A model generated the notes under the pieces. The model made no database searches and was not told the origin of the DNA. It saw only the letters and a list, made by a program, of their open reading frames with translations. DNA of 64,000 bases from Herminiimonas sp. KBW02 (GTDB taxonomy: Bacteria; Pseudomonadota; Gammaproteobacteria; Burkholderiales; Burkholderiaceae_D). The translations under genes and the position numbers were made by a program. This document shows positions 42,565 to 59,355 of the stretch, in pieces; positions within the stretch are counted from its first letter, which is position 1; every line of letters starts with the position of its first letter. The DNA lies in the NCBI RefSeq assembly GCF_003852535.1, contig NZ_QAJP01000007.1, positions 62,001 through 126,000 of the forward strand, written 5' to 3'.

Positions 42565-43584
42565 ATGGCGAGCCCGAAGAATCACAAACAGCTATGTAAG
42601 GAATTGATGCAGCAGCACGAAGTATTGCTGGAGTTGATAGGTGATGCGCCTTTCCACTATGTCGATATCCCTACGCACGGCAATGTAGGCGACTTGCTGA
42701 TCATGCACGGCACGCTGGCTTTCTTCCGCAAGCACGGTCTGCGTCCCAAGCTGATCGCACCTTACGACGCTTATGACCCGGAGTGGATAGATGAAGGTGA
42801 TGTGATCGTATTCCACGGCGGCGGCAATTTCGGTGACCTGTATCCATGCTTCCAGCAGTTGCGGGAAGACATCGTCATGTCGCATTCGCGCAATCGCATC
42901 ATTGTGCTGCCGCAATCGCTGCATTTCTCTTCAGCTGTCGAGCAGGCTGCTTCCGCAGAAGTATTCCGCAGTCATCCGGATGTACACATCTGTGTACGGG
43001 ATGAAGTGTCGCTGCAGATGGCGCAAGCCTTCAGCGATCACGTGTATCTGTTGCCGGATATGGCGCATCAGCTCTATCCGCTGCGGTCTGGGAACAAGCG
43101 TCCGTCACAACATGGTTTGCGCATTAGTCGCGTCGATGATGAAGGTGGTGCGCATGCCGATATGAGCGAGCTGAATATAGAAACTCTCACCGACTGGCCG
43201 GAATTCGTCGGTGAGCGGGAAGAACGTATCAACCTGTTCCGTCGTGGCCTTGGAGGTTTCTATCGCCGTGGTATGGGACGCATCGCGAATCGCATCCTGG
43301 TGCGTCTGTGGATCGCTTACTCGGCACGGCTAGTCAAGGATGCGGCGCGCTTGTTTGCGCGGCATGAGTTCATCGTGACGGATCGCCTGCACGGCCACAT
43401 CCTCGCTTGCCTGCTGAATCGCCCCAACATCGTGCTCGATAACAGCTATGGAAAGAATTCCCGCTATGTCGCGGCCTGGACGCAGCGCAGTGAGCTGGTG
43501 ACGCTGGAGCAGGCACAGACGCAACCCACACAGCCACGGACAACACGAATCGCAGATGTCGCGCAGTTGGCGGCCATCATTTAA
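42565..43584 (+). CDS. Polysaccharide pyruvyl transferase family protein
   Basis: Predicted to add ketal-linked pyruvate from phosphoenolpyruvate to a sugar of the repeat unit. The 339 residues match the polysaccharide pyruvyl transferase family (WcaK/EpsO type). Recognisable segments are THGNVGDLLIMHGTLAF, VIVFHGGGNFGDLYP, IIVLPQSLHFS, CVRDEVSLQMAQ and VTDRLHGHILACLL. It is cytoplasmic. Position between chain-length genes and glycosyltransferases suits repeat-unit decoration, which would give the polymer an acidic group. Confidence 0.9.
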   Translation: MASPKNHKQLCKELMQQHEVLLELIGDAPFHYVDIPTHGNVGDLLIMHGTLAFFRKHGLRPKLIAPYDAYDPEWIDEGDVIVFHGGGNFGDLYPCFQQLREDIVMSHSRNRIIVLPQSLHFSSAVEQAASAEVFRSHPDVHICVRDEVSLQMAQAFSDHVYLLPDMAHQLYPLRSGNKRPSQHGLRISRVDDEGGAHADMSELNIETLTDWPEFVGEREERINLFRRGLGGFYRRGMGRIANRILVRLWIAYSARLVKDAARLFARHEFIVTDRLHGHILACLLNRPNIVLDNSYGKNSRYVAAWTQRSELVTLEQAQTQPTQPRTTRIADVAQLAAII

Positions 43585-43596: not shown

Positions 43597-44673
43597 TTGG
43601 CGACGATAGATGTTTTACTGCCGGTGAAGAACGGCATCGACTACCTGGCGGCATCGCTGGACAGTATCTGCATGCAGACTTTCAGGGATTGGCGCGTGCT
43701 GGTGCTGGACCACGGTTCTACCGATGGCAGCCTGGAGCTGGCCGAGGACTACCACCGACGCGATCCGCGCATAGAAGTACATAGCTTCCCGCAAGCCGAA
43801 GGCCTGGCTGGCTTGCTGAATTGCGGCCTCGAGATCAGCGATTGCAAATATGTGATGCGGCATGATGCCGATGATGTCTGCTTCGTCGATCGTATGGAGA
43901 TCGTGCTGGCCGCTTTCAAACGGCAACCGGACTGTGTCGCTATCAGCGGGCAATCGTCGGTGATCAATGGTGCAGGTGAAGTCGGCGGCAATATCAAGAT
44001 GCCGATCGGTCGTCAGCGTGTGGCAGCCGCCAGCTTCTTCCGCAATCCGATTACGCATCCGGCTGCCATGATGGATTTCGCTGCGGTACAAAAACTGGGT
44101 GTGCGTTACGGCTCGGATTTCCTGAAGGTGATGCCTGCCGACAAGCGTTTGCAGGTGAATAGCCTGGCTGAGGATTACTTCATGTTCGGCCAGCTGGCGA
44201 TACTCGGCAAGTGCACCAATGTGCCGTCACAGCTGATCCAGTATCGCTGGCACGGCAGCAATGTCAGCGCGACGCGCTTCCGCGAACAGGTCGAGGTGTC
44301 GCTGGATATCTCGCGTTACCTGACGCGCTCCTTCTGCATCATGCATGACCTGCCTTACTTCGATCCGGCGCCTTTCTGCAATCACGGCGGTATTTTGTTT
44401 GATGTGAATGGCCGGACCGATTTTTCCGATGAGTTCGCGCAGATGGCGTATACCTTGCGCCGCGGACTCGGTGCGTCGGAAGAGCTGGAACGCGAACTGA
44501 TCTTCCGTAAAGCGGCATCGACGCGGCAGGATGCGGCCTTGCTGTGGCGCTATTTCCAGTTCCAGTCGCGCAATGCACCTGAGACTGGTGAATGGAATGC
44601 CATCCGTTCCTGGCTGATCCGTCGTTTCCCTGGCAAGGGCAGCATGAGTGTGGCCGGGGAACTGGCTGCTTAA
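43597..44673 (+). CDS. Glycosyltransferase family 2
   Basis: A 358-residue GT2-type enzyme. The N-terminal nucleotide-sugar domain reads IDVLLPVKNGIDYLAASLDS and VLDHGSTDGSLELAE, with the metal-binding acidic motif in MRHDADDVCFVDRM. A C-terminal acceptor part follows. No membrane helices are apparent. The start appears to be TTG at 43597, well placed after AAGGGAGA, since no ATG fits the conserved N-terminus. Donor and acceptor sugars cannot be derived from sequence. Confidence 0.88.
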   Translation: MATIDVLLPVKNGIDYLAASLDSICMQTFRDWRVLVLDHGSTDGSLELAEDYHRRDPRIEVHSFPQAEGLAGLLNCGLEISDCKYVMRHDADDVCFVDRMEIVLAAFKRQPDCVAISGQSSVINGAGEVGGNIKMPIGRQRVAAASFFRNPITHPAAMMDFAAVQKLGVRYGSDFLKVMPADKRLQVNSLAEDYFMFGQLAILGKCTNVPSQLIQYRWHGSNVSATRFREQVEVSLDISRYLTRSFCIMHDLPYFDPAPFCNHGGILFDVNGRTDFSDEFAQMAYTLRRGLGASEELERELIFRKAASTRQDAALLWRYFQFQSRNAPETGEWNAIRSWLIRRFPGKGSMSVAGELAA

Positions 44674-44677
44674 TTCC

Positions 44678-46117
44678 ATGCCTACCGACATTCCATATCA
44701 GGCCACTGCAGCTGGTGGCAAAGTACACATGCGCTGGCTGCCGAATCAGGGGCAGGCGCATACAGTACTGGGCGTGATCGTGCTGGCGCTGCTGGCCGGG
44801 ATCGTCGTACCGTTTTATGCGGAAGTGATGGATTACAAGCTGGCGCGACTGGCAGCCTTGCCTGCCTTCCTGCTGTTTGGTTTTCTGCTGCTGTTTAACC
44901 GTATGGCCTTGCTGACGCTGATTATCGTGTTTCGCTCGGTCGGTGATGTGGTGCTGGAATCCACTCGTTTCTCGATAGGCGGCTATACCACCGGGCTCGG
45001 TGGTGTCATCAATCTGTGTGTGATCCTGCTGGCCTGCATGCTGGTGATGGAGCGGCCGCAGCAATTGCCGAAGAAGATGGTCTGGTCGTGGTTGCCGTTC
45101 CTGCTGGCAGCGCTGTTCGGTGTCGTGATCTCGCCGGAGAAGGGTGACGCGATCCGCACTTACCTGACGCTGTTGTCTTATTTCGCGATGTTCGTGAGTG
45201 CTTTTTACTTCGTGCGCTCGGCGCAGGATTTCCGCTATTGCGTACGATTGGTGTTGTGGTCCTCGGTCTTGCCTGCGCTGTATGCAGTGGTCGATGTTGC
45301 CTTGCACGGTGCCAGCGGCGGGGCGGAAGGCTTCCGCCTGCAATCAACGTTTACCCATCCGAATATCTTCGCCTTTTACCTGACGCTGGTGATCCCGCTG
45401 ATCCTGTTCACTCTGAAGGATAAGGCCATGCCTATGAGTGGCACCATGCGGGTGGTGGTGACGCTGTACTTCTTTTACCTGCTGGCTTTGCTGGTGCTGA
45501 CGCAGACCCGTAGTGCGTGGATTGCCTGTCTGTTTGTCTTTGTCGGCTATGCCTTGCTGTTTGAACGACGTTATCTGCTGTACCTGATGCTGTTGCCGGT
45601 GGTGGCTTTGCTGGTGCCGGAGATCCGTGATCGCTTGCTGGATCTGGGTAGCGGTACCGAAGCAGTCGGCTATGCGAAGCTGAATTCGTTTGCCTGGCGT
45701 TTGTCGATCTGGGAGAGCGGCCTGCAGTGGATGCGCCCCAGCCATTATCTGTCCGGCTACGGCGTCGATGCTTTCCGTTACTTTTCACAGACTTTTTTTC
45801 CGGCTGCAAACAAGATGAACTGGGGTGCGCACAATGTCTATGTGCAATGGTTCTTTGATGCAGGTGTGCTCGGCTTGGGTGCTTATCTCTTCCTGTATGC
45901 ACGCATGGTGCTGGTGCTGAAAGCCTTGTTCAGGACAGACCGGCTGGCGTCCTTCATCACGATTGCTATCGTGATTGTGTATCTGGTGGTGTCGTCCTCG
46001 GACAATATGTTCGGCTATCTGGTCTTTAACTGGTACTTTTGGTTTGTCATCGGTGCCGGCTGCGCACTGGCGACTATCAGCGGGGCCTTGCCCACTACTA
46101 AAGAAGGTGCGCGATGA
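44678..46117 (+). CDS. O-antigen ligase-like polysaccharide polymerase (Wzy)
   Basis: A 479-residue polytopic inner-membrane protein with about ten to twelve helices and a large periplasmic loop (about 360-395). It includes the Wzy_C/O-antigen ligase pattern LLVLTQTRSAWIACLFVF and the loop GYGVDAFRYFSQTFFP with AHNVYVQWFFDAG. It should polymerise repeat units on the periplasmic face, in partnership with the flippase at the cluster's end and epsF/epsG. The ATG at 44678 lies four bases after the upstream stop with little ribosome site, suggesting coupling. It overlaps the next gene by four bases. Confidence 0.87.
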   Translation: MPTDIPYQATAAGGKVHMRWLPNQGQAHTVLGVIVLALLAGIVVPFYAEVMDYKLARLAALPAFLLFGFLLLFNRMALLTLIIVFRSVGDVVLESTRFSIGGYTTGLGGVINLCVILLACMLVMERPQQLPKKMVWSWLPFLLAALFGVVISPEKGDAIRTYLTLLSYFAMFVSAFYFVRSAQDFRYCVRLVLWSSVLPALYAVVDVALHGASGGAEGFRLQSTFTHPNIFAFYLTLVIPLILFTLKDKAMPMSGTMRVVVTLYFFYLLALLVLTQTRSAWIACLFVFVGYALLFERRYLLYLMLLPVVALLVPEIRDRLLDLGSGTEAVGYAKLNSFAWRLSIWESGLQWMRPSHYLSGYGVDAFRYFSQTFFPAANKMNWGAHNVYVQWFFDAGVLGLGAYLFLYARMVLVLKALFRTDRLASFITIAIVIVYLVVSSSDNMFGYLVFNWYFWFVIGAGCALATISGALPTTKEGAR

Positions 46118-47088
46118 GCGGCCCGCGTCTGGAAGTGCTGGATGGCTGGCGCGGCGTCAGCATCCTGTGTGTACTGGCAGCGCACTTGCTGCCTATGGGA
46201 CCCAAGGTATTGCAGATGAATGCGATGTTTGGGCTGCTCGGTATGTCTTTGTTCTTTACGCTGTCCGGTTTCCTGATTACTTCCTTCCTGCTGAAGGACC
46301 CGCCGGTGTCGGATTTTCTGGTGCGTCGCTTCTTCCGCATCCTGCCGCTCGCATGGTTGTATCTGGCGCTGGCATTGACGCTGGCTGGTGCGTCGGCGGA
46401 TACCTGGCTGTCGCATTTCTTCTTTTACGCAAACTTGCCGCCAGTGCATCTGGTGACGCTGACTGAACACATCTGGAGTTTGTGCCTGGAGATGCAGTTT
46501 TATCTGGGCATCGCCTTGCTGTTTGCCTTGTTTGGAGTGCGCAGCCTGTTGCTGCTTCCTTTGCTGGCTTTGTTCTTCACCGGCTTGCGCGTAACGGATG
46601 GCGTGTATGCATCCAGCATCAGCTATTACCGCATGGATGAAATCCTGGCCGGTTGTACTTTGGCCTTGCTGGTACAGCACCGCAGTGATTTGCGTGTGCT
46701 GGCGTGGCTGAAAAAAATTCCGCAATGGCCATTGCTGCTGTTGTTGCTGGTGTCCTGCCATGAGCAGGGCGCAGCGCTGAATTACCTGCGTCCGTATCTG
46801 GCGGCGCTGCTGGTCGGCAGCACCATCGTCAATCCGGCCAGCACGCTCGCCACCCTGCTGAACCGTCGCGTGCTGGTTTACCTGGCGACTATCTCCTATG
46901 CGTTGTACGTGATCCATCCGCTGCTGGCGCATACCTGGCTCGGTAGCGGTGATGTGATCGTCAAATACCTGAAGCGGCCCTTGCTGTTCGCGGTGCTGTT
47001 CGTCCTTGCGCATATCTCTACCTTCTACTTTGAACACTGGTGGATAGCGCGCGGCAAGATGATGGCCAACAAATTTAAAACAGCTTAA
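46114..47088 (+). CDS. Acyltransferase 3 family membrane protein
   Basis: A 324-residue integral membrane O-acyltransferase (AT3/OafA type) with about ten helices. The family start is DGWRGVSILCVLAAHLLPMG, with the catalytic histidine in the first helix. FFTLSGFLITSFLL and LVRRFFRILPLAWLY follow, and the late TISYALYVIHPLLAHTW. It probably acetylates the polymer or its lipid-linked precursor. ATGA overlap with the polymerase gene supports cotranslation. Confidence 0.9.
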   Translation: MSGPRLEVLDGWRGVSILCVLAAHLLPMGPKVLQMNAMFGLLGMSLFFTLSGFLITSFLLKDPPVSDFLVRRFFRILPLAWLYLALALTLAGASADTWLSHFFFYANLPPVHLVTLTEHIWSLCLEMQFYLGIALLFALFGVRSLLLLPLLALFFTGLRVTDGVYASSISYYRMDEILAGCTLALLVQHRSDLRVLAWLKKIPQWPLLLLLLVSCHEQGAALNYLRPYLAALLVGSTIVNPASTLATLLNRRVLVYLATISYALYVIHPLLAHTWLGSGDVIVKYLKRPLLFAVLFVLAHISTFYFEHWWIARGKMMANKFKTA

Positions 47089-47093: not shown

Positions 47094-48536
47094 ATGGAGA
47101 ACCCGGATATGCCTATTTCCCACCCTGATGTCGGTACCAAAAACAGTATTGCGACTGCACTGGCTTTGTGTGGCGCATTGCTGCTGACAGGCGCGCCCAT
47201 GCATGCGGCAGCGCAGAGTGGCTGGGGGACGTATCAAAAGCCGTTTGCCGCCAGCTCACCGTGGAATAGTCGTCCGGTGCAGCCGGTGCTGGGCGACTTC
47301 GTGATCCCGAAGTCCACCTATGCACCTGGCGTTGCTGGTGGTGAGTGGTCTACTGGTGTGTTCCTCGCGAAAGCAGGGGATCAGCCTGTCACGGTAAGCG
47401 GTTTGCCGAAGACGCAAGGCCTGTGGGACCCGGATGCATCTGCTTTCCATGACGTGACTATCCCGCGCTGGCCTGCGGATGTAGTGGCTGCCAGCGCCAG
47501 TGATGGTCATGCCGATATCGTTGATCCGGCGACCGGCATCGTTCACTCATTCTGGCAATTGAAAAAGGTCGATGGCAAGTGGGTCGCGGCGCAGTATGCA
47601 TGGACCAAACTGAACGGTCGCGGCTGGGGTGATCCGGCGCATTACTTCCAGGGTGCGCGCGCGGCCGGAGTGGCGACTGCGGGTGGCCTGATACGCAAGC
47701 ATGAAGTGAAGGACGGCGATGTGATGTATCGCCACGCGCTGGCCATGTCGCTGACCTTCGACGGGTTATCGTCGCAACCGACTTATGTATTCCCGGCGAC
47801 TTCGGCAGATACCGATGCCGCCACGCGCAACACAGGAAAGATACCGGAAGGTGCCTTGCTGATGCTGCCGTCTTCCTATGACACCAGCAAGATCAGCAAT
47901 CCTGATCTGCGCAAAGTCGCGGAGACGCTGAAGACCTACGGCGCTTATGTGGTTGATCGTAACTTCGGTACGCCTTTCTTTATCTATGTGGAAAACGGTG
48001 CCGGTTTCGATTTGCATAAAGGCGGCTGGGACAACAACGTAGCCAATGATCTGGAACGCATGCGCGTGGCACTGCGTCCGGTGGTGTCAGCGCAAGGCTG
48101 GCTGGATGGGAATGGGCAGCCTGTCGTTCTGCAAAAGCAAATGAATCTCCTGTCCATGCGTGGCCCGTGGCAATTGCAATCGGGTGCCAGCCTGGGGGAT
48201 TTCGATACCTGGCAACAGGCGGTGGTGTTTCCTGCCAACGCGCAGGCGGTGACACAAGTCAATTATTCATCGCGTGGTTTGCATCCGGTGAACTGGGCCT
48301 TGCCACAGGCAGGAAAGAACTACCGCGTTACTGCGCGGACCACTGGCGGTGGCAAATTGCGCCTGCAAGTACGCCACCCATCCGGCAACCCGCTTTACTT
48401 CGATAGCGGCGAGTTGACGAACGGCGAAGGCAAGACCTTTGCATGGCCTGATCCGCGCGCGATTGTGACCGTGTATGCGACCAGTGGTGTCGGCACCGTG
48501 TCTACGGTGAGTGGTGAATTACTGCAAATGGATTAA
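47094..48536 (+). CDS. Secreted protein of unknown function in the EPS cluster
   Basis: A 480-residue protein I cannot assign. A signal peptide (about 15-41, cleavage near MHAAA-QSG) implies export. The mature part begins with an [11 protein letters not shown] segment, has a central globular region with many Trp, Tyr, His and Asp (WAKLN-like, [26 protein letters not shown]), and ends with an all-beta module (about 385-480, [18 protein letters not shown]). That layout is common in carbohydrate-active enzymes with an accessory domain. Its place between acyltransferase genes makes a polymer-cleaving, -binding or -modifying role likely, but no catalytic signature is recognisable. Confidence 0.7.
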
Positions 48537-49123
48537 TGAAACGAATGATGGATAGCGACTGGTCAGCAGATGTGCAGCGATATGACATGCGACGCCCGTT
48601 CCTGAAAGAGCAATCGATCTGGGCCGTGTGGACTTATCGCCTGGGGCGACGCATAGATAACCGCGCACCGGGGCGCATGAAGCGTGTGCTGACGGCTGTG
48701 TACTGGCCGTGGTTCCGCCTGGTGGAAACCATGGTCGGCATCAGCCTGCCGAAGTCGGCAGTGATAGGCGGCGGTCTGCGCATCTGGCATTTCGGCGGCA
48801 TCTTTGTACACCCGGAAGCGCAGATAGGTCGCAACTGCACTTTGCGCCAGGGCGTGACCATAGGTAATCGCGTGGCCGACGGTGCGGTGCCGGTGATCGG
48901 TGACGACGTCGAGTTTGGTGCGTATGCACAAGTGCTGGGCGCGGTGCGCATCGGGAATGGTTGCCGCATCGGTGCGCTGTCGGTGGTCTTGTGCGATGTG
49001 CCGGATGGTGCAACGGCGGTCGGTGTGCCGGCGCGAATAGTCGGACAGACGGAAGCAGATAGTCTGCAAAAAAATATACAAGAAGATGTGTCGAGGATTA
49101 TGCGTTCCGCTACGGAGCGCTGA
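48536..49123 (+). CDS. Serine O-acetyltransferase-like hexapeptide acetyltransferase
   Basis: A 195-residue left-handed beta-helix acetyltransferase of the CysE/WcaB type. A helical N-terminus (about 20-75) is followed by hexapeptide repeats (about 85-175, with LRIWHFGGIFVHPEAQIGRNC, GNRVADGAVPVIGDDVEFG and AVGVPARIVG). In an EPS cluster it more likely acetylates a sugar than serine. It shares one base with the preceding stop codon (TAATG). Nearby in-frame ATGs at 48545 and 48548 are possible starts. Confidence 0.83.
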   Translation: MKRMMDSDWSADVQRYDMRRPFLKEQSIWAVWTYRLGRRIDNRAPGRMKRVLTAVYWPWFRLVETMVGISLPKSAVIGGGLRIWHFGGIFVHPEAQIGRNCTLRQGVTIGNRVADGAVPVIGDDVEFGAYAQVLGAVRIGNGCRIGALSVVLCDVPDGATAVGVPARIVGQTEADSLQKNIQEDVSRIMRSATER

Positions 49124-49134: not shown

Positions 49135-50379
49135 GTGAACGCGATACGTGTTGCCTACCTGATTAATCAATACCCGAAGGTGAGCCACAGCTTTATCCGG
49201 CGGGAAATATTAGCGCTGGAACGTCAGGGCATGAATGTGCAAAGGATAGCGATGCGCGGCTGGGATGGTGATCTGGTCGATGCCGAGGATTTCACTGAAC
49301 GTGATCGCACGCGCTATGTATTGAAAAACGGTTTGTCCGGCTTGCTACGCTCGGTGTTGTCGGTTGCTACCTCTACGCCGACGCGCCTGTTTCACGGTTT
49401 GCGCCTGGCCTGGCAGATGAGCAAACGCGCCGACCGTTCCTTGCCTTACCACTTGATATATCTGGCGGAGGCATGCCAGGTAGCCTTGTGGCTGAAGCGG
49501 GAAGGTGTGACGCATCTGCATGCGCACTTCGGTACCAATTCTGCCGAGGTAGCAATGCTGGCGAGCGAACTGACTGGCGTACCGTACAGCCTGACCATAC
49601 ATGGCTCGGAAGAATTCGATAAGGCCGAGTTCATCGGCCTCGGGGAAAAGCTGCGCCGCGCTACCTTTGTCGCTGCTGTCAGTTCTTTCTGTCGCAGTCA
49701 GTTGTATCGCAGCGTCGCCTATACACACTGGGCCAAGATGCACATCGTGCATTGTGGCGTCGATCCTGACTTCTATCGCATAGGTGCGACACAGGTCGTC
49801 GAGAAGCCACGCTTTGTTTGCGTCGGACGTTTATGTGAACAGAAGGGCCAGCAAATCCTGATAGAAGCGGCAGCGCGACTGGCGGCCAAGGGTATAGATT
49901 TTGAACTGGTGCTGGCAGGGGATGGTGAGATGCGCCCCGAGGTCGAAGCACTGATTGAAAAACATGGTCTGGGTGCGCAGGTAAGGATTACCGGCTGGAT
50001 CAGCAGCGAGCAGGTCAGGCAGGAGCTGCTGGCGGCGCGTGCACTGGTGATGGCGAGTTTTGCTGAGGGTTTGCCGGTAGTGATTATGGAAGCGATGTCG
50101 GTACAGCGTCCGGTGCTGACGACATGGATAGCCGGGATACCGGAGCTGGTGATCGAAGGTGAAAACGGCTGGTTGTATCCGCCGGGTTCGGTCGATGAGC
50201 TGGCACTGGCGATGGAGCGTTGCCTGAATACACCGCATGATGAACTGGCACGCATGGGTTCTCGTGCGCGTACCCGTGTGCTGGCCCGTCACGACATCGA
50301 CCGGGAAGCGGCCAAGCTGATTGCCCTGTTCTATCAAGTGTCGCAAGGTGATCGCTGGCTGCTGGGAGGTAAACCATGA
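49135..50379 (+). CDS. Glycosyltransferase family 4 (WcaL-like)
   Basis: A 414-residue GT-B enzyme of the colanic-acid WcaL type. The N-terminal acceptor domain includes RVAYLINQYPKVSHSFIRRE and GVTHLHAHFGTNSAEVA, with SLTIHGSEEF. The C-terminal donor domain has RFVCVGRLCEQKGQQILIEA, GDGEMRPEVEALI and the E-x7-E motif in SFAEGLPVVIMEAMSVQRPV. The start is GTG at 49135 after AAAGGA. It overlaps the next gene by four bases. The sugar is unknown; WcaL relatives often transfer galactose. Confidence 0.9.
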   Translation: MNAIRVAYLINQYPKVSHSFIRREILALERQGMNVQRIAMRGWDGDLVDAEDFTERDRTRYVLKNGLSGLLRSVLSVATSTPTRLFHGLRLAWQMSKRADRSLPYHLIYLAEACQVALWLKREGVTHLHAHFGTNSAEVAMLASELTGVPYSLTIHGSEEFDKAEFIGLGEKLRRATFVAAVSSFCRSQLYRSVAYTHWAKMHIVHCGVDPDFYRIGATQVVEKPRFVCVGRLCEQKGQQILIEAAARLAAKGIDFELVLAGDGEMRPEVEALIEKHGLGAQVRITGWISSEQVRQELLAARALVMASFAEGLPVVIMEAMSVQRPVLTTWIAGIPELVIEGENGWLYPPGSVDELALAMERCLNTPHDELARMGSRARTRVLARHDIDREAAKLIALFYQVSQGDRWLLGGKP

Positions 50380-51563
50380 TGACTCTATTCCAGATCATTT
50401 TGTTGCTGGTGGTACTGGCCTTGCTGGTGCCGGTTGCCGTGCTCCTGCTGCAGGTACTGGCGGCGACGGCAAAGAAATCCGTGGCCGCTATACCCGGCGG
50501 ACGGCGTCCGGAAGTCGCGGTACTGGTGCCAGCGCACAATGAAGCACAAGGCATAGCCGCGACCGTGGCCGGGATACGTGCGCAGTTGCGTGAGGGTGAC
50601 CGCATTCTGGTTGTTGCTGATAACTGCGATGATGACACCGCAGAACAGGCATTGGCGGCTGGTGCACCGGTATTGGAGCGCGATGATTTATCGGCGCGCG
50701 GCAAAGGCTATGCGCTGGATGCTGGCGTGCGGCAACTGGCGCTGAGTCCGCCGGAGGTCTTGATCATCATAGATGCCGATTGTCGCGTAAAAGCTGGCTC
50801 GATCACACACCTGGCTTGTACTGCGCTGGAAACGCAAAGACCGGTGCAAGCGCTGGATCTGATGCGCGCACCACGCGGTGCCGGTCTGAAGATACGTATT
50901 GCCGAGTTTGCCTGGATAGTGAAGAACAAGGTGCGTGCACTGGGTTTCCATCATCTGGGTTTGCCGTGTCAGTTGATGGGTACCGGCATGGCCTTTCCGT
51001 GGCCGTTGATAGCGCAGGCGTCGCTGGCGAACGGTCACCTGGCGGAAGACATGAAACTGGGCGTAGAGCTGGCGCGGGCGCAGGCGGCACCGGTATTTTG
51101 TCCGGAAGCCTGCGTGGTCAGTTACTTCCCGAGCAGCGATGAAGCCGCGCGCATGCAACGCACGCGCTGGGAGCATGGGCATATGGGCATGATCATGCAT
51201 GAAGGCTTGCCTTTGCTGTGGCAGGGCATACGCGAGCGCAATCGTGCGCTGTTTGCGATGGCGCTGGATATGTGCGTACCGCCGCTGGCTTTGCTGACGC
51301 TGCTGGCGTGCGCAGTGTTTGCCATGACTGCGCTGAATTTCCTGGTCTTTGATTACGCTACGCCGCTGGTATTGGCCGGTGTATTACTGGCGGCATTGAC
51401 GCTGGCGATACTGCTGTCGTGGCAACGCTTTGGCCAACAAGTGTTGAGCCTGAAGGATTTATTTTCGGCATTGGGCTATGCGTGCTGGAAGTTACCGTTG
51501 TACATGAAGTTCTTCGTGAACCGTCAGCTTGAATGGGTAAGGGCCAGACGTGATGCAGAATAA
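50376..51563 (+). CDS. Glycosyltransferase family 2, membrane-bound
   Basis: A 395-residue GT2 enzyme of the processive/membrane type. An N-terminal helix (about 5-28) is followed by a catalytic domain (about 45-265) with EVAVLVPAHNEAQGIAATVA, VVADNCDDDTA, the metal-binding IIDADCRVK, the AEDMKLG motif and QRTRWEHGHM (the Q-x-x-RW signature). Two C-terminal helices lie near 295-320 and 326-346. It is more like ceramide or hyaluronan-type synthases than soluble GT2 enzymes. It overlaps both neighbours (ATGA before, 11 bases after). Confidence 0.88.
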   Translation: MMTLFQIILLLVVLALLVPVAVLLLQVLAATAKKSVAAIPGGRRPEVAVLVPAHNEAQGIAATVAGIRAQLREGDRILVVADNCDDDTAEQALAAGAPVLERDDLSARGKGYALDAGVRQLALSPPEVLIIIDADCRVKAGSITHLACTALETQRPVQALDLMRAPRGAGLKIRIAEFAWIVKNKVRALGFHHLGLPCQLMGTGMAFPWPLIAQASLANGHLAEDMKLGVELARAQAAPVFCPEACVVSYFPSSDEAARMQRTRWEHGHMGMIMHEGLPLLWQGIRERNRALFAMALDMCVPPLALLTLLACAVFAMTALNFLVFDYATPLVLAGVLLAALTLAILLSWQRFGQQVLSLKDLFSALGYACWKLPLYMKFFVNRQLEWVRARRDAE

Positions 51564-52743
51564 TCAGGCACTGATGCCGGACTACAGCGGCACGCAAATT
51601 TCTTCTTACCCTGTGCAGACTGATTTTCAGCGTCAGGTGGTGTGCATACTCGGACTGCCTTTCGATGTGATCAGCACTGACCAGGCGGTCGATAAATTAT
51701 CGGATGCAGCGCATCAGTATCAGCGTTGCTTTCTCTCGACCCCCAATCTGAATTTTGCCGTGGCCAGTCTGGCTGGCGGCGCATTCCGCGATTCCGTCAT
51801 ACGTAGTGACTTGTCGGTGGCAGACGGCATGCCGCTGGTATGGATAGCAAGGCTGCTCGGTTTGCCTGTCACTGAACGGGTTGCCGGTTCTACTTTGTTT
51901 GAACGTCTGCGCACACGCAAAGATGGCGCGGAAAAATTGCGCGTGTACTTCTTTGGCGGACCGGATGGTGTGGCAGCGGCCGCAGCAGAGAAGCTGAATG
52001 ACAGTGCGTCCGGCCTGGTATGTACAGGATATGAATCACCAGGTTTTGGCAGCCTAGAGCAGATGAGTACGCCCGCCATCATCAATCGCATTAATGCCAG
52101 CCAGGCTGATTTTGTGGTGGTCGCTTTGGGTGCAAAGAAAGGGCAGGCCTGGATAGAACACAATCTGGCCGCACTGGATGCCCCTGTCATCAGTCATCTG
52201 GGCGCGGTAGTGAATTTTGTCGCCGGTACTGTTGTACGTGCACCGCGCTGGGTGCAGCGCATAGGCGGCGAATGGTTGTGGCGCATATGGGAAGAGCCCA
52301 GCTTGTGGCGACGTTATTTGTACGACGGCTTTACCTTGCTCCGGCTGATGACGCGTCATGTGTTGCCGTGTGCGGTGATGGTGCGTCTGCGCAAACCTGA
52401 ACTGGATGCGCTGCTTGCGGCACGCATAGAGATGCAGCAGCACGCCAGCCACATCAGTATTCATGTCTGCGGTGCATGGGATGAACGCAACCTGACAGCA
52501 ATGCGAAAAGTATTTACAGATGCAAGCATGATGCCTGCCGACATCCGTATCGACTTTACTGACGTGACGCATATTGATAGTGCCTGCATAGGCTTGCTGC
52601 TATTGCTGTATGGCCACCAAAGCAAAGTGCAGCGTGATTTCGTCTTGCATGGAGTGCGTCCTGATGTGTTGCGTATTTTGCGTTTGTACTGTGCTGACTA
52701 TCTGGTGAGTGAACAGCAAGCTGCTTACGTCGTCGTTGCCTGA
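51553..52743 (+). CDS. WecG/TagA/CpsF glycosyltransferase fused to a STAS domain
   Basis: A 396-residue two-domain protein. The first part (about 30-260) is a WecG/TagA/CpsF family glycosyltransferase with FLSTPNLNFAVASL, VADGMPLVWIARLLG, RVAGSTLFERL, VYFFGGPDGVA and QADFVVVALGAKKGQAWIEHN. Such enzymes transfer ManNAc-type or glucose residues to lipid-linked acceptors. The second part (about 300-396) is a STAS domain. ADIRIDFTDVTHIDSACIGL carries the conserved serine (Ser343) that anti-sigma-type kinases phosphorylate in related proteins. The fusion suggests regulation of the transferase by phosphorylation or partner binding. ATG at 51553 is chosen over the adjoining GTG. It is the last gene before a 244-base gap. 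Confidence 0.88.
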   Translation: MQNNQALMPDYSGTQISSYPVQTDFQRQVVCILGLPFDVISTDQAVDKLSDAAHQYQRCFLSTPNLNFAVASLAGGAFRDSVIRSDLSVADGMPLVWIARLLGLPVTERVAGSTLFERLRTRKDGAEKLRVYFFGGPDGVAAAAAEKLNDSASGLVCTGYESPGFGSLEQMSTPAIINRINASQADFVVVALGAKKGQAWIEHNLAALDAPVISHLGAVVNFVAGTVVRAPRWVQRIGGEWLWRIWEEPSLWRRYLYDGFTLLRLMTRHVLPCAVMVRLRKPELDALLAARIEMQQHASHISIHVCGAWDERNLTAMRKVFTDASMMPADIRIDFTDVTHIDSACIGLLLLLYGHQSKVQRDFVLHGVRPDVLRILRLYCADYLVSEQQAAYVVVA

Positions 52744-52987: not shown

Positions 52988-54019
52988 ATGCAAATATTAG
53001 TAACGGGAGGAGCTGGTTACATCGGCTCACATACTTGTGTAGAACTGATTAATGCAGGGTATCAGGTCGTCGTTGTCGATAACCTTTGCAATAGCAAAGT
53101 GTCGGTGCTCGATCGCGTCGCAACGATCACCGGTACCGCGATAGATTTCATCGAAGCAGACCTGCGTGACTACTCTGCGATGGATGAAATATTTTCCGCG
53201 TATGAATTTGATGCCGTCGTGCATTTCGCCGGACTGAAAGCAGTCGGTGAATCGGTGGCGGAGCCGCTGCGCTATTACGACAATAATGTGGAAGGCAGTC
53301 TGGTGTTGTTCCAGGTGATGGCCAGGCATGATGTGAAGAGTCTGGTCTTCAGTTCTTCCGCCACGGTCTACGGTGACCCGGCCACTGTGCCTATTGTCGA
53401 AGATTTTCCATTGGCGGCCACCAATCCTTATGGTCGCAGCAAGCTGATGATAGAAGAGATGCTGCGCGATGTGGCGACTTCTGATCCGTCATGGCGCATC
53501 GCTTTGTTGCGCTACTTCAATCCCGCCGGTGCGCATGAGAGCGGCCTGATCGGCGAAGACCCGAATGATGTACCGAATAACCTGTTTCCGTATGTGGCGC
53601 AGGTTGCGTCGGGGCGGCGCGAGTTGCTCTCGGTCTACGGTTCCGATTATCCGACTTCGGATGGTACCGGCGTGCGTGACTACATCCATGTAGTTGATCT
53701 CGCACTTGGCCATGTGAAGACGCTGGCACGCTTATTGAGTGCGGAAATGAATGCCGATGCAGGCGTGCTGGCCTACAACCTGGGTACCGGTTGCGGCAGC
53801 AGCGTATTGCAAATGATCAGTGCATTTGAAAAAGCGAGCGGGCGCAAGATTCCGTATCGCATCGTTGCACGCCGTCCCGGCGATATCGCCGTGTGTTACG
53901 CCGATGCTTCACTGGCGCAACGCGAACTCGGCTGGCGCGCGATCCGCAGCATAGAGCAAATGTGCGCTGATTCCTGGCGCTGGCAGGCGATGTCGGAAGA
54001 AAAGCTGGCCTATGCCTGA
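52988..54019 (+). CDS. galE: UDP-glucose 4-epimerase
   Basis: Interconverts UDP-glucose and UDP-galactose, feeding galactose into the polymer. The 343 residues start MQILVTGGAGYIGSHTCVEL (the NAD-binding Rossmann motif). The SSSATVYGDP active-site serine/threonine segment follows, then NPYGRSKLMIEEML with the catalytic Y-x3-K, and GTGVRDYIHVVDLA. A cytoplasmic dehydrogenase/reductase of extended type. It opens the second half of the EPS cluster after a promoter-like gap. Confidence 0.96.
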   Translation: MQILVTGGAGYIGSHTCVELINAGYQVVVVDNLCNSKVSVLDRVATITGTAIDFIEADLRDYSAMDEIFSAYEFDAVVHFAGLKAVGESVAEPLRYYDNNVEGSLVLFQVMARHDVKSLVFSSSATVYGDPATVPIVEDFPLAATNPYGRSKLMIEEMLRDVATSDPSWRIALLRYFNPAGAHESGLIGEDPNDVPNNLFPYVAQVASGRRELLSVYGSDYPTSDGTGVRDYIHVVDLALGHVKTLARLLSAEMNADAGVLAYNLGTGCGSSVLQMISAFEKASGRKIPYRIVARRPGDIAVCYADASLAQRELGWRAIRSIEQMCADSWRWQAMSEEKLAYA

Positions 54020-54063: not shown

Positions 54064-55251
54064 ATGAAAGCAATGATACTTGCCGCAGGCAAAGGAACAC
54101 GCGTCCAGCCCCTGACTTATGAATTGCCGAAGCCAATGATACCGATACTGGGTAAGCCGGTGATGGAGTACCTGGTCGAGCATCTGGTGAAGTACGGTAT
54201 CCAGGAGATTATGGTCAACGTCAGTTACCTGCACCAAAAGATAGAAGACTATTTTGGTGAAGGGCAGCGTTTTGGTGCACAGATAGGTTATTCCTTCGAA
54301 GGCTATATGACCGACGAAGGTGAAGTCATGCCCAAGCCCATAGGTTCCGCCGGCGGTCTGAAGAAGATACAGGAGTTCGGTGGTTTCTTTGATGAAACAA
54401 CATTGGTCATATGCGGTGATGCGCTGATCGACCTCGATATCAAATCAGCCTTGTTTGAACACAAGCGCAAAGGCGCGATGGTCAGCATCATTACCAAGGA
54501 AGTGCCGCTGGATAAGGCATCTGATTACGGCATGGTGGTGACCGATGAGGAAGGACGTGTTTTGTCCTTCCAGGAAAAACCGAAACCGGAAGAGGCGCTG
54601 TCGAACCTGGCCAGCACTGGTATTTATATTTTCGAGCCGGAAGTGCTGGACCTGATTCCATCCGATACCGAGTTTGATATCGGTTCACAGCTGTTCCCTT
54701 TGCTGGTGGAGAAGGGCGTGCCTTTCTTTGCTCAAAAGCGTTTCTTCAACTGGATCGATATCGGCAACGTCAAAGACTACTGGCAGGTTTCGCAAAATGT
54801 GCTGAAGGGCGAGCTCGCGCATATGACCATGCCCGGTACACAGATCGCCGATGGTGTGTGGGTCGGCCTGAACACACGCATAGACTGGGAAGGAACGACG
54901 ATAGAAGGACCGGTGTATATAGGTTCCGGTTCGACGGTGGAAGCGGGCAGCACCATCATAGGCCCGACCTGGATAGGGCATGGCAGCCAGATCTGCAGCG
55001 GTTCGGAAGTCACACGCAGCGTACTGTTCGAATACACGCGCGTCTCGCCGAACTCCCATATGTCGGAGCTTGTCGTGTGCAAGGATTACTGTGTCAGTCG
55101 CATCGGCCAGATGCAGCACGTCTCGGATTGTGTCGAAGATTACTGGCGTGATGCGCGTGATCGTCGCGGCAAAACGCGCACACCTGAAGCGGAAGCTGCG
55201 GGCTTGCCACCGCAGGAAGTCAAGCCGCGCAAGCTGGCGAATGTGGCCTGA
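54064..55251 (+). CDS. NDP-sugar pyrophosphorylase with hexapeptide repeats
   Basis: A 395-residue nucleotidyltransferase of the mannose-1-phosphate guanylyltransferase/glucose-1-phosphate group. The N-terminal catalytic domain (about 1-235) has MILAAGKGTRVQPLTYELPK, ICGDALIDLDI and FNWIDIGNVKDYWQVS. A left-handed beta-helix follows (about 260-350, DGVWVGLNTRIDWEGTTIEG). The last 40 or so residues form a charged tail (RDARDRRGKTRTPE) that I cannot assign. It could supply GDP-mannose or another NDP-hexose; the separate ManC two genes on suggests a different sugar for this enzyme. Confidence 0.85.
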   Translation: MKAMILAAGKGTRVQPLTYELPKPMIPILGKPVMEYLVEHLVKYGIQEIMVNVSYLHQKIEDYFGEGQRFGAQIGYSFEGYMTDEGEVMPKPIGSAGGLKKIQEFGGFFDETTLVICGDALIDLDIKSALFEHKRKGAMVSIITKEVPLDKASDYGMVVTDEEGRVLSFQEKPKPEEALSNLASTGIYIFEPEVLDLIPSDTEFDIGSQLFPLLVEKGVPFFAQKRFFNWIDIGNVKDYWQVSQNVLKGELAHMTMPGTQIADGVWVGLNTRIDWEGTTIEGPVYIGSGSTVEAGSTIIGPTWIGHGSQICSGSEVTRSVLFEYTRVSPNSHMSELVVCKDYCVSRIGQMQHVSDCVEDYWRDARDRRGKTRTPEAEAAGLPPQEVKPRKLANVA

Positions 55252-55262: not shown

Positions 55263-56681
55263 ATGAAAATTTATCCCGTTATTTTGTCCGGTGGTTCAGG
55301 CAGCCGTTTATGGCCCTTGTCGCGTGCCGCCTTGCCCAAGCAATTACTGCCGCTGGTATCCGAGCGCACGATGTTGCAGGACACCGTGTTGCGTGTCGCT
55401 AACTGGAAAGGCGTGGAGCCGCCGCTGGTCGTCTGTGGTGATGATCATCGCTTCCTGGTCGCCGAGCAATTACGCCAGATCGGCATCACACCGACCGCCA
55501 TCCTGCTGGAAGCGCAGGGGCGCAATACGGCACCTGCCGTGGCGGCGGCAGCGAATTACCTGAGCGCGCTGGAGCCGGATGCAGTGATGCTGGTGCTGCC
55601 AGCGGATCATATGATTGCGGATGAAGATGCCTTCCATGTCGCGGTGATGCTGGCTGCCGATGCGATAGGTACGACTGCGCTGGCCACTTTCGGCATCGTG
55701 CCGACTGCGGCTGAAACCGGTTACGGCTATATCCGTCGCGGTGCGGCATTAGATGCATCGGAAACCTGTTTCGCGGTGGAACGCTTTGTGGAAAAACCCG
55801 ATCTGGCCACCGCAGAGAAATTCCTCGCCGATAAAAATTATTCGTGGAATAGCGGCATGTTCATGTTCCGCGCTACCGCTTACCTGTCAGAACTGCAGCG
55901 CCTGCAACCAGAGATGGCGCAGTGCTGTGCATTGGCAGTACATGATGCGTATAGCGATTTGTCATTCTGCCGCCTTGATGAAACCGCCTATGCGGCATGC
56001 CCGGCCGAGTCTATCGATTTTGCGGTGATGGAGCACACTGCGCATGCGCTGGTGATCCCGGTTGATATAGGCTGGAGCGACGTCGGCTCGTGGTCGGCGC
56101 TGGCAGAAATCAAGCCTGGCGACAAGGACGGCAACATTCTGCACGGTGATGTGTACACGGATGGCGTGACCGATACGCTGATCCGTTCCGGCAGCCGCTT
56201 CGTCGCCGCGATAGGCGTCGATAAGCTGATCGTGGTGGAAACCAAGGATGCGGTACTGATAGTCGCAAAGGACCAGGTGCAACGCGTCAAACAGGTGGTC
56301 GAACATCTGCAGCTGGAACAACGCAGCGAACATCTGAACCATACACGCGTGTATCGCCCGTGGGGTTGCTACGAAGGGATAGATGCAGGTGAGCGCTTCC
56401 AGGTCAAACGCATCACCGTTGATCCGGGTGAAAAACTTTCACTGCAGATGCACCACCATCGCGCCGAACACTGGGTAGTCGTGACGGGTACTGCCCGTAT
56501 CACTTGCGGCGAGACAGTCAGGCTGCTGACTGAAAACGAATCCATCTACATCCCGATAGGTACGACACACAGGCTGGAGAATCCGGGCAAGATGCCGCTC
56601 CATCTGATCGAAGTGCAATCGGGGGCTTACCTGGGAGAAGATGACATCGTGCGTTTCGACGATGTGTATCAACGCGCCTGA
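55263..56681 (+). CDS. manC: Mannose-1-phosphate guanylyltransferase/mannose-6-phosphate isomerase
   Basis: Bifunctional enzyme making GDP-mannose, 472 residues. The N-terminal nucleotidyltransferase (about 1-290) has VILSGGSGSRLWPLSR, LLEAQGRNTAPAVAAAA, VLPADHMI and FVEKPDLATAEKFL. The C-terminal cupin-type isomerase domain (about 340-472) has RPWGCYEGIDAGERFQVKRI, LSLQMHHHRAEHWVVVTG and the metal-ligating histidines. Shares one base with the next gene's start. Indicates mannose or a GDP-mannose-derived sugar in the polymer. Confidence 0.95.
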   Translation: MKIYPVILSGGSGSRLWPLSRAALPKQLLPLVSERTMLQDTVLRVANWKGVEPPLVVCGDDHRFLVAEQLRQIGITPTAILLEAQGRNTAPAVAAAANYLSALEPDAVMLVLPADHMIADEDAFHVAVMLAADAIGTTALATFGIVPTAAETGYGYIRRGAALDASETCFAVERFVEKPDLATAEKFLADKNYSWNSGMFMFRATAYLSELQRLQPEMAQCCALAVHDAYSDLSFCRLDETAYAACPAESIDFAVMEHTAHALVIPVDIGWSDVGSWSALAEIKPGDKDGNILHGDVYTDGVTDTLIRSGSRFVAAIGVDKLIVVETKDAVLIVAKDQVQRVKQVVEHLQLEQRSEHLNHTRVYRPWGCYEGIDAGERFQVKRITVDPGEKLSLQMHHHRAEHWVVVTGTARITCGETVRLLTENESIYIPIGTTHRLENPGKMPLHLIEVQSGAYLGEDDIVRFDDVYQRA

Positions 56682-57910
56682 TGAACCTGTCTGACCATCC
56701 GAATTTGCAAGAGCATCCTTTCATACAAAACGCGACGCGTCCGCTGATCGTACGACTGACGGAAAAGCGCAGCGAAGGTCGCGTCATCCGCAGCGCGAGC
56801 TTTGGCAACCAGCAAGTCTGGTGGGATCTGGCCGGACCCGAACACAGTTTGCCCGCGCCGCTGGTGGCACACGATATGGCGGCGACCGCCTTGATTTTTG
56901 TCGCGATGCATCGCGGCCAGGATTTATATATCGATGGCCCGGTGACGTATTCCCTGTTGAAAAACATGGAGGACCTGATCGCGTGCTGGGTCGCCTGGCG
57001 ACCGGATCTGTACCGAGCTATACGCGTAGGTGCGGCACAGGAGTTGCCGGATAGCGCGATCCCGGCTCCGTATGCGACGCGCGCAGTGGCGGCGTTCTCC
57101 GGCGGCCTGGATGCATCATTTACTGCATGGCGTCACGTTACCGGACGCGCCGGGCGACGCAGCTATCCCTTGCATGCAGGCGTGCTGATACAGGGCTTCG
57201 ATATCGCGCTGGATGCAAAGGCTGCTTTCGATACCACCATCGCTTCTGCGGCTGATACCCTGCATTCGATCAGTGTGCCGATGGTGACGCTGAAGACCAA
57301 CTGGCGCACCGTCGCCTGCGTGAACTGGGAAATGGAATTCGGTAATGGTGTTGCCACCTGTTTGCGCAACTGGCAGGGCAGTGCGAATGCGGGCCTGGTT
57401 GGTTCCGATGAAGACTACGCCCGGCTGGTTCTGCCCTGGGGTGGCAATCCGATTACCTATGCGATGCTATCCAGTCGCGATTTCCAGATTGTGTATGACG
57501 GTGGTGAATTCGCCCGTACTGAAAAAGCCGAAGGCATACTCGACTGGCCGGTAGGTTTGCGCAATCTGCGCGTGTGCTGGGAAGGCCCGACTACCGGGCG
57601 CAATTGTGGTCGCTGCGAGAAATGCATGCGTACCAAACTCAACTTCATGGCGGTCGGTGCGGTCTTGCCAGAGTCGCTGGCGGGTCGTCCGACGGATGCG
57701 CAGATCCTGCGTTTGCGCGCGGGGAATCATGCGCAACTGGTCTTGCTGGAAGAGATCGTGCTGATTGCGGAGCAGCGCCAGATCACCGAATCATGGTTGC
57801 GCATGCTGAAGTGGGCGATCAAGAAGAACCGTTTCCTGAATACCTTCTCCATCTTTGGCCGGATCAGGCGCTTGCTGGGTTCCGTTAAACGCAGGCTGGT
57901 GGCCAGATGA
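56681..57910 (+). CDS. QueC-like PP-loop ATPase of unknown role in the EPS cluster
   Basis: A 409-residue protein not usually named in EPS clusters. An adenylating PP-loop is seen as AAFSGGLDASF (Ser140 to Ala145; the canonical last serine of SGGxDS is alanine). Far downstream, Cys299, Cys309, Cys312 and Cys315 form C-x9-C-x2-C-x2-C in RNCGRCEKCMRTK, the zinc knuckle of QueC-type enzymes. QueC activates a carboxylate with ATP and converts it to amide and nitrile. A large N-terminal extension (about 1-130) is extra. No membrane helix. It shares one base with manC and overlaps the flippase gene (ATGA), so it belongs to this operon. An amidating or adenylating step on a sugar acid or protein is conceivable; a non-EPS role cannot be excluded. 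Confidence 0.75.
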   Translation: MNLSDHPNLQEHPFIQNATRPLIVRLTEKRSEGRVIRSASFGNQQVWWDLAGPEHSLPAPLVAHDMAATALIFVAMHRGQDLYIDGPVTYSLLKNMEDLIACWVAWRPDLYRAIRVGAAQELPDSAIPAPYATRAVAAFSGGLDASFTAWRHVTGRAGRRSYPLHAGVLIQGFDIALDAKAAFDTTIASAADTLHSISVPMVTLKTNWRTVACVNWEMEFGNGVATCLRNWQGSANAGLVGSDEDYARLVLPWGGNPITYAMLSSRDFQIVYDGGEFARTEKAEGILDWPVGLRNLRVCWEGPTTGRNCGRCEKCMRTKLNFMAVGAVLPESLAGRPTDAQILRLRAGNHAQLVLLEEIVLIAEQRQITESWLRMLKWAIKKNRFLNTFSIFGRIRRLLGSVKRRLVAR

Positions 57911-59355
57911 AAAATATGCGACGGGTGGTGCCGTGGGCCATCGTCGATAGCCTGGGAGTAGGGCTGCTCGGTTTCCTCACGCTGGCCATCATGACGCGGG
58001 TGCTGACGCCCACTGACTTCGGTAGTGTCGCCTTCGCGCAATCCATCGTCCTGCTGACACAACTGGTGATAGGCCTCGGTATCAATGAAGCGCTGATCCA
58101 GCGGCGGCCCATCGACATGCTGCATCTGGACAGTGCGTTCTGGATGGCGGTCGCGCTTGGCTTGTCCGGCTTCCTGTTTTGCGTCGGCATCGGTCTTTAC
58201 TTCATTTTCTATTTGCAGGAGAGTCTGGTCGGTACCATCCTGCTGGCCGAAGGGACGGCCTGTCTGTTCACCGGCCTGAACCTGTTGCCGTCTGCGATGC
58301 TGGATCGCAAGCTGCGCACCAAGGCGATTGCACGACGTACGGTTGCCGGCAAGCTGAGTTACGGCATCGTCGCGATCACGCTGGCGCTGTCGCAGTTCGG
58401 CGTGTGGAGCATCGTCATCGCCGGTATCGTGCAAAACATTTTACTGACGGTGATTTTCTGGCGTGGCCAGCTACGGTGGCCGCAGCGTCGCTTTTCCTGG
58501 CCGCATGCAAAGCAATTGATTGTGTTTGGTTTCCCGGTGATGCTGGAAGGTGCGTTGTGGGCTTTCCTGACGCGCGTGTTCAGCTTGCTGATCGGTACGA
58601 TACACGGCATGAGCATGCTGGGTTTTGTCAGCGTTGCGTTCAAGGCGACCGATGCCTTGTCGAATATCGTCGGTAGTGTGGCGGGACGCATAGGCTTGCC
58701 GCTGTTCTCTTCTATGCAGCAGGACAAGGAGCGCTTGCAGCGTTCCTTCCTGCAAACCACACAGGTGATGGCTTTCGTTTCCACGCCTATCTTCGTCGGT
58801 CTCGCACTGACCACTGCGCAATGGGTGCCGCTGCTACTGGGGAATAAATGGGCGGAAGCGATACCGATGATCGTGATCCTGTGCTTTGTGTGGGCGATCA
58901 GCTTCACCCGTATCTTCGTCAGTCCTTATTTGCGGGCGCTGGGTCATCCGCGTGCCTTGCTGTTACCGGCGGTGTGTGCGGGGGCCTGTACCATCGCTGC
59001 CGTGTTCCTGACGGCGCAGCAGTCTGCGATTTACATCATCGCTGCGTGGTCGTGCCGGGTGGCAGTAACGTATCCGCTGGGTTTGCACCTGTTACGCAAG
59101 TACGCAGCGATTCCTATGCGTACGCAATTGCAGCCTTTGCTGTCGCCTGTTATGTGCGTCACTTTCATGGCGGCCTGCGTCTATGCGGCGCAACGCGGCT
59201 TGCAGCATCTGTCGCTGCCTTTGCTGGCGATGCTGTTTATCTCGATGGCTGTGGGGGCGCTGAGCTATGCGCTCGCGGTGCTTTTGCTGCACCGTGAGCA
59301 TTTGTCAGGATTATGGGCGAACTGGCGCGGCGGGGAATTGAAGCAAAGCCCTTAG
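57907..59355 (+). CDS. Wzx-type polysaccharide flippase
   Basis: Moves lipid-linked repeat units across the inner membrane. The 482 residues have about twelve to fourteen helices of the polysaccharide transport (MATE-like) fold. The family start AIVDSLGVGLLGFLTLAIMTRVLTP is followed by FGSVAFAQSIVLLTQLVIGLG and the ALIQRRPI segment. Its partner is the polymerase earlier in the cluster. Its stop codon overlaps that of the convergent PAP2 gene by four bases, leaving no room for a conventional terminator between them. Confidence 0.9.
   Translation: MKNMRRVVPWAIVDSLGVGLLGFLTLAIMTRVLTPTDFGSVAFAQSIVLLTQLVIGLGINEALIQRRPIDMLHLDSAFWMAVALGLSGFLFCVGIGLYFIFYLQESLVGTILLAEGTACLFTGLNLLPSAMLDRKLRTKAIARRTVAGKLSYGIVAITLALSQFGVWSIVIAGIVQNILLTVIFWRGQLRWPQRRFSWPHAKQLIVFGFPVMLEGALWAFLTRVFSLLIGTIHGMSMLGFVSVAFKATDALSNIVGSVAGRIGLPLFSSMQQDKERLQRSFLQTTQVMAFVSTPIFVGLALTTAQWVPLLLGNKWAEAIPMIVILCFVWAISFTRIFVSPYLRALGHPRALLLPAVCAGACTIAAVFLTAQQSAIYIIAAWSCRVAVTYPLGLHLLRKYAAIPMRTQLQPLLSPVMCVTFMAACVYAAQRGLQHLSLPLLAMLFISMAVGALSYALAVLLLHREHLSGLWANWRGGELKQSP

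Follow-up and report, generated by a model that had tools for sequence, protein, structure and literature searches.

Results

A QueC-like gene between manC and wzx

We analysed a stretch of 64,000 nucleotides of the Herminiimonas sp. KBW02 genome (contig NZ_QAJP01000007.1, positions 62,001 to 126,000), which is called the window in the following. An exopolysaccharide (EPS) cluster spans approximately 37.9 kb to 59.4 kb of the window, and inside it lies an open reading frame (ORF, 56681-57910) for a protein that we call QLP, for QueC-like PP-loop protein; the same label is used for its relatives. Together they appear to form a distinct, widespread and so far unnamed QueC-like family with polysaccharide pyruvyl transferases (PPTs) and Wzx-type flippases as partners, and this family seems to be new. 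In the open-licence PMC literature we found no paper on it and no biochemical data on any member.

The QLP frame starts with ATG and encodes 409 amino acids followed by a stop codon. The coordinates of the ORF and the motifs given in an earlier note on this DNA were all correct: read on alignments, the SGGLDA PP-loop occupies residues 140-145, and Cys299, Cys309, Cys312 and Cys315 form a C-x9-C-x2-C-x2-C knuckle (299-315). R279 and K282 are further conserved positions. The long N-terminal extension that had been described is present as well, with approximately 130 residues ahead of the QueC-like core. The proposed tight coupling to the neighbouring genes is visible as overlaps, since the manC stop and the QLP ATG share 1 nt (TGATG) and the QLP stop and the wzx ATG share 4 nt (ATGA). 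The ORF is real and under purifying selection; in comparisons with four relatives dN was well under dS (dN 0.009, 0.032, 0.145 and 0.204; dS 0.39, 0.99, 1.35 and 1.18, the larger dS values being close to saturation). QLP is present in 8/13 genomes of the genus, and the protein of the closest named relative, H. contaminans, is 98% identical.

QLP is predicted to be a PP-loop enzyme distinct from QueC

Iterated searches yielded a family alignment of 59 different rows, the window protein and 58 relatives. All four cysteines and the [ST]-x-G-x-D motif are kept in every row, as is R279, and K282 is kept in 57/59; because the rows from phage contigs were fetched with the cysteine pattern NCGxCxKCxR, cysteine conservation is inflated for this part of the alignment. 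Altogether, S140/G142/D144, G172, N207, R279, K282, C299, N308-C309-G310, C312, K314 and C315 are invariant or nearly so.

Existing family models recognise the window protein poorly. The Pfam models DUF6395 (PF19932; cut-off 25 bits) and QueC (PF06508; cut-off 22 bits) score 18.2 and 13.8 bits, respectively, both in the knuckle region only. DUF6395 matches 13 of the 59 rows at E<=0.01; a search for this family found no member in 100 genomes and none in 14 controls either. No NCBIfam family matches the window protein at E up to 5, and PADLOC gave no match. The phage family phrog_1550, labelled 'QueC-like queuosine biosynthesis' and placed in the moron category, matches 25/59 rows with a best E of 1.9e-7, whereas its match to the window protein covers the knuckle only (E 9e-4) and its name is a family label.

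Profile comparisons were more informative. PP-loop enzymes (MnmA, GMP synthase, TilS and QatC) account for all nine of the best PDB matches of the 59-row profile, with weak E values of 0.013-0.21. AsnB, NadE, ArgG, LarE and QueC follow at E values up to 4.5, and designed helical proteins, which align to the C-terminal part of the profile, are mixed among these lower matches. With hhalign the family aligns colinearly with QueC from the PP-loop through the knuckle (134-331, E 3.9e-6). Over the PP-loop part it also aligns with NASAT (3e-7; a profile of 9 rows from 14 loci), GuaA (3.6e-7) and MnmA (4.5e-7); of these four alignments only that with QueC extends through the C-terminal knuckle. The weak PDB matches and the colinear QueC match support the assignment made earlier, and QLP is almost certainly a PP-loop ATP pyrophosphatase. 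Because of the profile matches and the QueC alignment that reaches the knuckle, we classify it as a predicted PP-loop enzyme with a QueC-like tail.

The same comparisons argue that QLP is not QueC. The segment DxSGYPDCR, which we take to be the substrate-binding segment of QueC, is found in 16/16 QueCs and in 0/59 QLP rows, and the Herminiimonas genome has its own queC on another contig (C12:210175). The likeness consists of the PP-loop, the C-terminal knuckle, in which it is limited to the cysteine positions, and the colinear match; the N-terminal extension, the missing segment and the sub-threshold Pfam score set QLP apart. The earlier note had called the knuckle characteristic of QueC, and its cysteine spacing does equal that of a QueC (L165), but the Pfam score falls short. 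Of the 'QueC chemistry' proposed in the note, carboxylate activation is plausible, but the segment kept in all QueCs is absent.

The surrounding cluster

Ten genes of the cluster were scanned against Pfam and the remainder was read by eye (Table 1). The order manC - QLP - wzx is conserved in seven loci (L002-L006, L010 and L011; L015 duplicates the L006 record), and in the five 20-kb loci L002-L006 the gene order is conserved back to the gene for the secreted-looking protein. The WecG/TagA-type glycosyltransferase is fused to a STAS domain, which is an unusual pairing.

Table 1. Genes of the EPS cluster in the window and PPT genes adjoining QLP in other loci. Position: nucleotides of the window, or locus; basis: how the feature was recognised, with remarks.
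Feature	Position	Strand	Basis
EPS export/initiation block (sugar-phosphate transferase-, Wza- and Wzc-like ORFs)	37930..42548	+	by eye
ParA/BcsQ-type ATPase, within the export/initiation block	41646-42548	+	Pfam
PPT	42565..43584	+	Pfam PF04230, 1.4e-36
Family-2 glycosyltransferase	43597..44673	+	Pfam scan
Wzy/O-antigen-ligase-like membrane protein	44693..46117	+	by eye; start unsettled, listed ORF from 44648
Membrane acyltransferase (Acyl_transf_3)	46114..47088	+	Pfam scan
Secreted-looking protein, 480 aa	47094-48533		no Pfam match at E<=0.001; position conserved in L002-L006
Hexapeptide acyltransferase	48536..49123	+	Pfam scan
GT4-type glycosyltransferase	49135..50379	+	by eye; synteny
Family-2-type glycosyltransferase	50376..51563	+	by eye; synteny
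WecG/TagA-type glycosyltransferase fused to STAS domain	51550..52743	+	Pfam scan
galE-like epimerase	52988..54019	+	by eye; homologues in synteny
NDP-sugar nucleotidyltransferase with hexapeptide repeats	54064..55251	+	Pfam scan
manC (mannose-1-phosphate guanylyltransferase / mannose-6-phosphate isomerase)	55263..56681	+	Pfam NTP_transferase 2.7e-56, MannoseP_isomer 4.8e-58
QLP	56681..57910	+	ORF list and translation
Wzx-type flippase	57907..59355	+	Pfam Polysacc_synt_3, 9.2e-60
PPT adjacent to QLP	L007, L044, L080, L084, L090, L102/L103, L104, L105, L108
PPT-QLP fusion, 753 aa	L077 9663-11924		Pfam

QLP is linked to polysaccharide pyruvyl transferases

Neighbourhoods were tallied by hand over 46 loci; the genus was counted as one locus, tandem and near-identical copies were merged and the weak relative L109 was included. 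A PPT (PF04230) adjoins QLP or is fused to it in 10/46 loci, and in two more (L095/L096 and L099/L100) it lies two or three genes away, so that 12/46 have one within three genes. Among ten unannotated PPTs scanned, eight passed the Pfam cut-off, those of L099 and L100 being under it. In Azospirillum PPT and QLP form a pair with no glycosyltransferases around. Under the strictest random model, in which every locus is given a PPT at a random position among 18 genes, the adjacency in 10/46 loci has P 0.027; for adjacency in 10 of the 13 PPT-bearing loci P is 6e-8. The background of 2,600 genes per genome used in this analysis is an assumption. On a quick tree of the QLP family the PPT adjacency requires at least nine changes, and therefore it was not inherited once.

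PPTs are rare in the class. One or more were found in 18 of 94 genomes (21 matches), and that of the window is the only PF04230 match in its genome. A PPT tree was calculated from 16 QLP-linked rows, including that of the window, and 20 other matches from the 94-genome search, 16 of which come from genomes without a strong QLP match and four from QLP-bearing genomes where they are not beside QLP (G502, G541 twice, G570). Because the tree has long branches and many open forks, and long branches that come together close to the clade in question were flagged by the program, we rely on one deep split only. It separates a clade of 11 rows (SH-aLRT 99; 100 in a smaller tree without the PPTs of G525 and G570, both of which fall outside the clade when added) that contains the window PPT, eight QLP-adjacent rows and unlinked PPTs of G502 and G541, and 0/16 of the background PPTs. 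The window PPT therefore belongs to the QLP-associated type, though it lies 13 kb upstream of QLP.

All three of the 94 genomes with a clade-type PPT (the window genome, G502 and G541) have QLP, which is strong in 4/94 (P 3e-5). The window genome is among the 94 by construction; without it the co-occurrence is 2/2 among 3/93 (P 7e-4). Judged from the genome labels, the 94 genomes are part of the 274 genomes that were searched for QLP.

Distribution of QLP and other neighbours

Strong QLP matches (E below 1e-50) were found in 9/274 genomes of the class; in another 18 genomes the matches, at E 6e-5 to 0.01, fall on proteins that we read as MnmA- or GuaA-type. In a sample of 299 genomes of the phylum seven had matches at E<=0.001. 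Relatives also occur in Verrucomicrobiota (L007), Cyanobacteriota (L102, L103, L106), Bacillota (L108) and a haloarchaeon (L107), and in 17 contigs of IMG/VR, while a phage-genome collection gave no match to the window protein itself. In eight annotated plasmid loci QLP is labelled 'hypothetical protein'. Genes in unannotated loci were called with a simple longest-ORF script and by eye.

A Wzx-type flippase lies directly beside QLP in 5/46 loci, namely the window, L033, L040 and L085 (Pfam) and L106 (annotation). L085 is a phage contig in which a QLP with 58% identity to that of the window is paired with a Wzx with 42% identity (6004-8633). The five flanking genes assigned with PHROGs, two tail-fibre genes, two virion genes and an exonuclease gene, are on the strand opposite to the pair. 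In L086 (5797-7029) and L088 (5875-7152) QLP is found near tail or baseplate genes without Wzx or PPT. A location of this kind points to lysogenic conversion, with the surface glycan as its target, and the phage-borne QLPs, in L085 together with Wzx, are probably surface-conversion morons. ATP-grasp enzymes neighbour QLP in five loci, with a PF14397 ('sugar-transfer associated') match in L039, weak matches in L081 and L083, and annotations in L105 and L107. The expectation that homologues always sit in EPS clusters was thus borne out for many copies and not for others, which are solitary, lie in phage contigs or make up a two-gene island.

Several single loci have unusual arrangements. The 1.9-Mb genome G257 carries four QLP paralogues, two of them in tandem (L033, L034, L035). 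In Thalassovita (L008, 8784-11119) a Hint-domain-like gene and QLP lie, as read by eye, within an apparent S10 ribosomal protein operon. A viral contig (L101:5251-7797) encodes an 848-aa protein in which QLP is fused with an aspartyl/asparaginyl beta-hydroxylase domain, and an alanine racemase gene lies nearby (3274-4392). On an Exiguobacterium plasmid (L109:7119-11358) a distant QLP-like protein is flanked by a PLP enzyme on one side and an AMP-binding protein on the other, in a possible small-molecule cluster.

MurL is a candidate distant relative

Two reports (PMC5808125, PMC8788868) describe MurL as AMP-forming and without known domains, and we found no domain assignment for it in the open-licence PMC literature. 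Our identification of MurL rests on synteny and distribution. Genome G498 has no MurI match, and its murD, which is outside the dcw cluster, overlaps a gene for a 453-aa protein taken as MurL; this protein matches in 40/40 genomes of the family to which G225 belongs, and G225, too, lacks a MurI match. The MurL rows (L141:6389-7750, minus strand, and L142-L164; 23 distinct) have GGGKDS and four cysteines in 24/24, in the first row at 148 and at 313/329/332/335, respectively, and those inspected have the spacing C-x15-C-x2-C-x2-C.

The QLP family and MurL align colinearly from PP-loop to knuckle (hhalign E 1.5e-5). In a comparison of five profiles QLP was the best partner of MurL (8e-5), the four other PP-loop profiles giving 0.0011-0.011. 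Four random 25-row subsets of the QLP alignment matched more weakly (6e-4 to 5e-3), the N-terminal parts of MurL and QLP do not match in a profile comparison (E 0.22) and the MurL profile has no significant match in the PDB. For these reasons we read MurL as a putative distant PP-loop relative of QLP and not as a member of the same family. A PP-loop with a Cys4 knuckle would fit the AMP-forming reaction of MurL.

The window genome has MurI and no direct sequence match to MurL, and no murD was recognised beside the QLP loci read. As a separate observation, among 235 genomes of the class with a completeness of at least 97%, 147 have no match to the glutamate racemase model TIGR00067 at E<=1e-10, and MurL accounts for few of the racemase-less genomes (4/141).

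Discussion

A proposed function in EPS modification

The PPT and Wzx partners support the role in polysaccharide assembly that had been suggested for this gene, and the target of QLP is quite probably a surface glycan or a precursor of it. The explanation that we favour overall, with a probability of about 0.35, is that QLP activates a carboxylate and derivatises, perhaps amidates, an acidic group of the polysaccharide repeat. In this scheme the cytoplasmic protein would bind ATP at S140-D144 and, as suggested by its superfamily, adenylate a carboxylate with formation of AMP and PPi. AMP is also released by QueC, GMP synthase and MurL, and presumably by NASAT. The acyl-adenylate would then be attacked by a nucleophile, for which ammonia or an amine is the likeliest candidate. 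That an amide or amine adduct is the product, and not the product of some other acyl transfer, is a tentative proposal.

Because of the PPT and Wzx partners we take the acid to be part of the glycan or of a glycan precursor. The acidic group of a lipid-linked or nucleotide-activated EPS repeat may be converted to a neutral derivative before the repeat is flipped by Wzx. Within the window we found no UDP-sugar dehydrogenase motif, the rest of the genome not having been searched for one, and thus the PPT is the only visible carboxylate source of the cluster. This makes its pyruvate ketal the best single guess for the substrate, although a doubtful one. In this chain of events the PPT would add the ketal, QLP would convert the carboxylate of the ketal to an amide or amine adduct, and Wzx would export the repeat. 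We know of no bacterial glycan with an amidated or capped, neutral pyruvyl decoration. A further speculation, which is unlikely to hold, is that PPT and QLP perform a two-step decoration that yields a neutral pyruvyl group, and that the PPT-QLP pairs of plasmids and the QLP-Wzx pair of the phage are mobile surface-conversion cassettes.

Several observations weigh against the pyruvate-based scheme. No PPT lies within three genes of QLP in 34/46 loci; some of these end at contig ends, and distant PPT types may be missed there, as only close types were sought by profile. Lone QLP copies in phage contigs and chromosomes indicate that a PPT apparently is not needed beside QLP. The QLP-adjacent PPTs of L007, L044 and L084 fall outside the PPT clade, as do the nearby PPTs of L095/L096 and L099/L100, the second PPT of G541 and that of G570. 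In addition, genes beyond the window might supply a uronate, and no ammonia donor (glutaminase) was recognised in the operon, in which no profile search for one was made.

Alternative readings

QLP might catalyse an AMP-forming acyl or aminoacyl transfer, adenylating a free hydroxy or amino acid and attaching it to the sugar at an amino or hydroxyl group. ATP-grasp (L039; weaker L081 and L083), GNAT, AMP-binding and carrier protein and NRPS genes near several QLP loci point in this direction; since such neighbours were not recognised in the window cluster and the PPT link is left unexplained, we consider it improbable, if the most serious of the alternatives. Less probable is a MurL-like activity. 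The two proteins have a common layout, with an N-terminal part of approximately 140 residues in front of the PP-loop and the C-terminal Cys4; MurL is AMP-forming and acts on an activated glycan, QLP is its best profile partner, and some QLP members have ATP-grasp or NRPS genes in their neighbourhood. Besides the weaker subset matches and the missing PDB match, MurL differs by its GGGKDS loop, C-x15-C spacing, dissimilar N-terminal domain and MurD2 partner, and no amino-acid ligase was recognised in the window cluster.

The novelty that the earlier note had claimed for such chemistry in this kind of cluster was too strong, because PP-loop enzymes are already known from lipopolysaccharide (LPS) clusters. 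PMC10607449 describes NASATs (WbpG, WbuX) as PP-loop and zinc-tetracysteine amidotransferases of O-antigen clusters with the motif CxxC-Xn-[GN]xCxxC, and according to PMC3568095, ExsB of the S. meliloti succinoglycan region has been reclassified as a true QueC. Two WbuX/WbpG-type NASAT genes lie close together elsewhere in the Herminiimonas genome (G000:C11:591723-595260). QLP, too, is a predicted PP-loop and tetracysteine protein of surface-glycan clusters, and the profile match in the PP-loop part would be in line with a NASAT-like reaction that forms an amidine on an N-acetyl sugar. However, QLP has no TIGR03573 match, the similarity ends before the knuckle, and the tetracysteine is N-terminal in the one NASAT row inspected, whereas the window protein has no CxxC before the PP-loop. 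Given this NCBIfam result, cysteine layout and profile extent, and two above-cut-off NASATs elsewhere in the genome, we rejected NASAT as an identity for QLP, and the amidine reading is quite unlikely. Still lower we rank a QatC/Cap9-like modification of a protein N-terminus or an anti-phage function. QatC is described in PMC13279940 with a 144-residue N-terminal part, a QueC core and a zinc Cys4, which resembles QLP, and relatives occur in the IMG/VR contigs; but QatC matches are weak and confined to 5/59 rows, PADLOC was negative for the window protein, no QatA/B/D or CBASS genes were recognised in the neighbourhoods read (they were not searched by profile), and the tail or baseplate neighbours in L085, L086 and L088 and the Wzx in L085 fit surface conversion. 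A true 7-cyano-7-deazaguanine synthase in an EPS operon would have a precedent in exsB, as well as the PP-loop and the knuckle; we rejected it on motif, Pfam score and the separate queC and regard it as extremely improbable.

Implications

QLPs are predicted enzymes without an assigned role, and their partners hint at the pathway in which they act. For MurL, the PP-loop with a Cys4 knuckle that we propose would make its AMP-forming mechanism directly testable. If the chemistry favoured here for QLP is true, carboxylate capping would be a further means of decorating glycans, and phages that carry QLP could alter the surface charge of their hosts.

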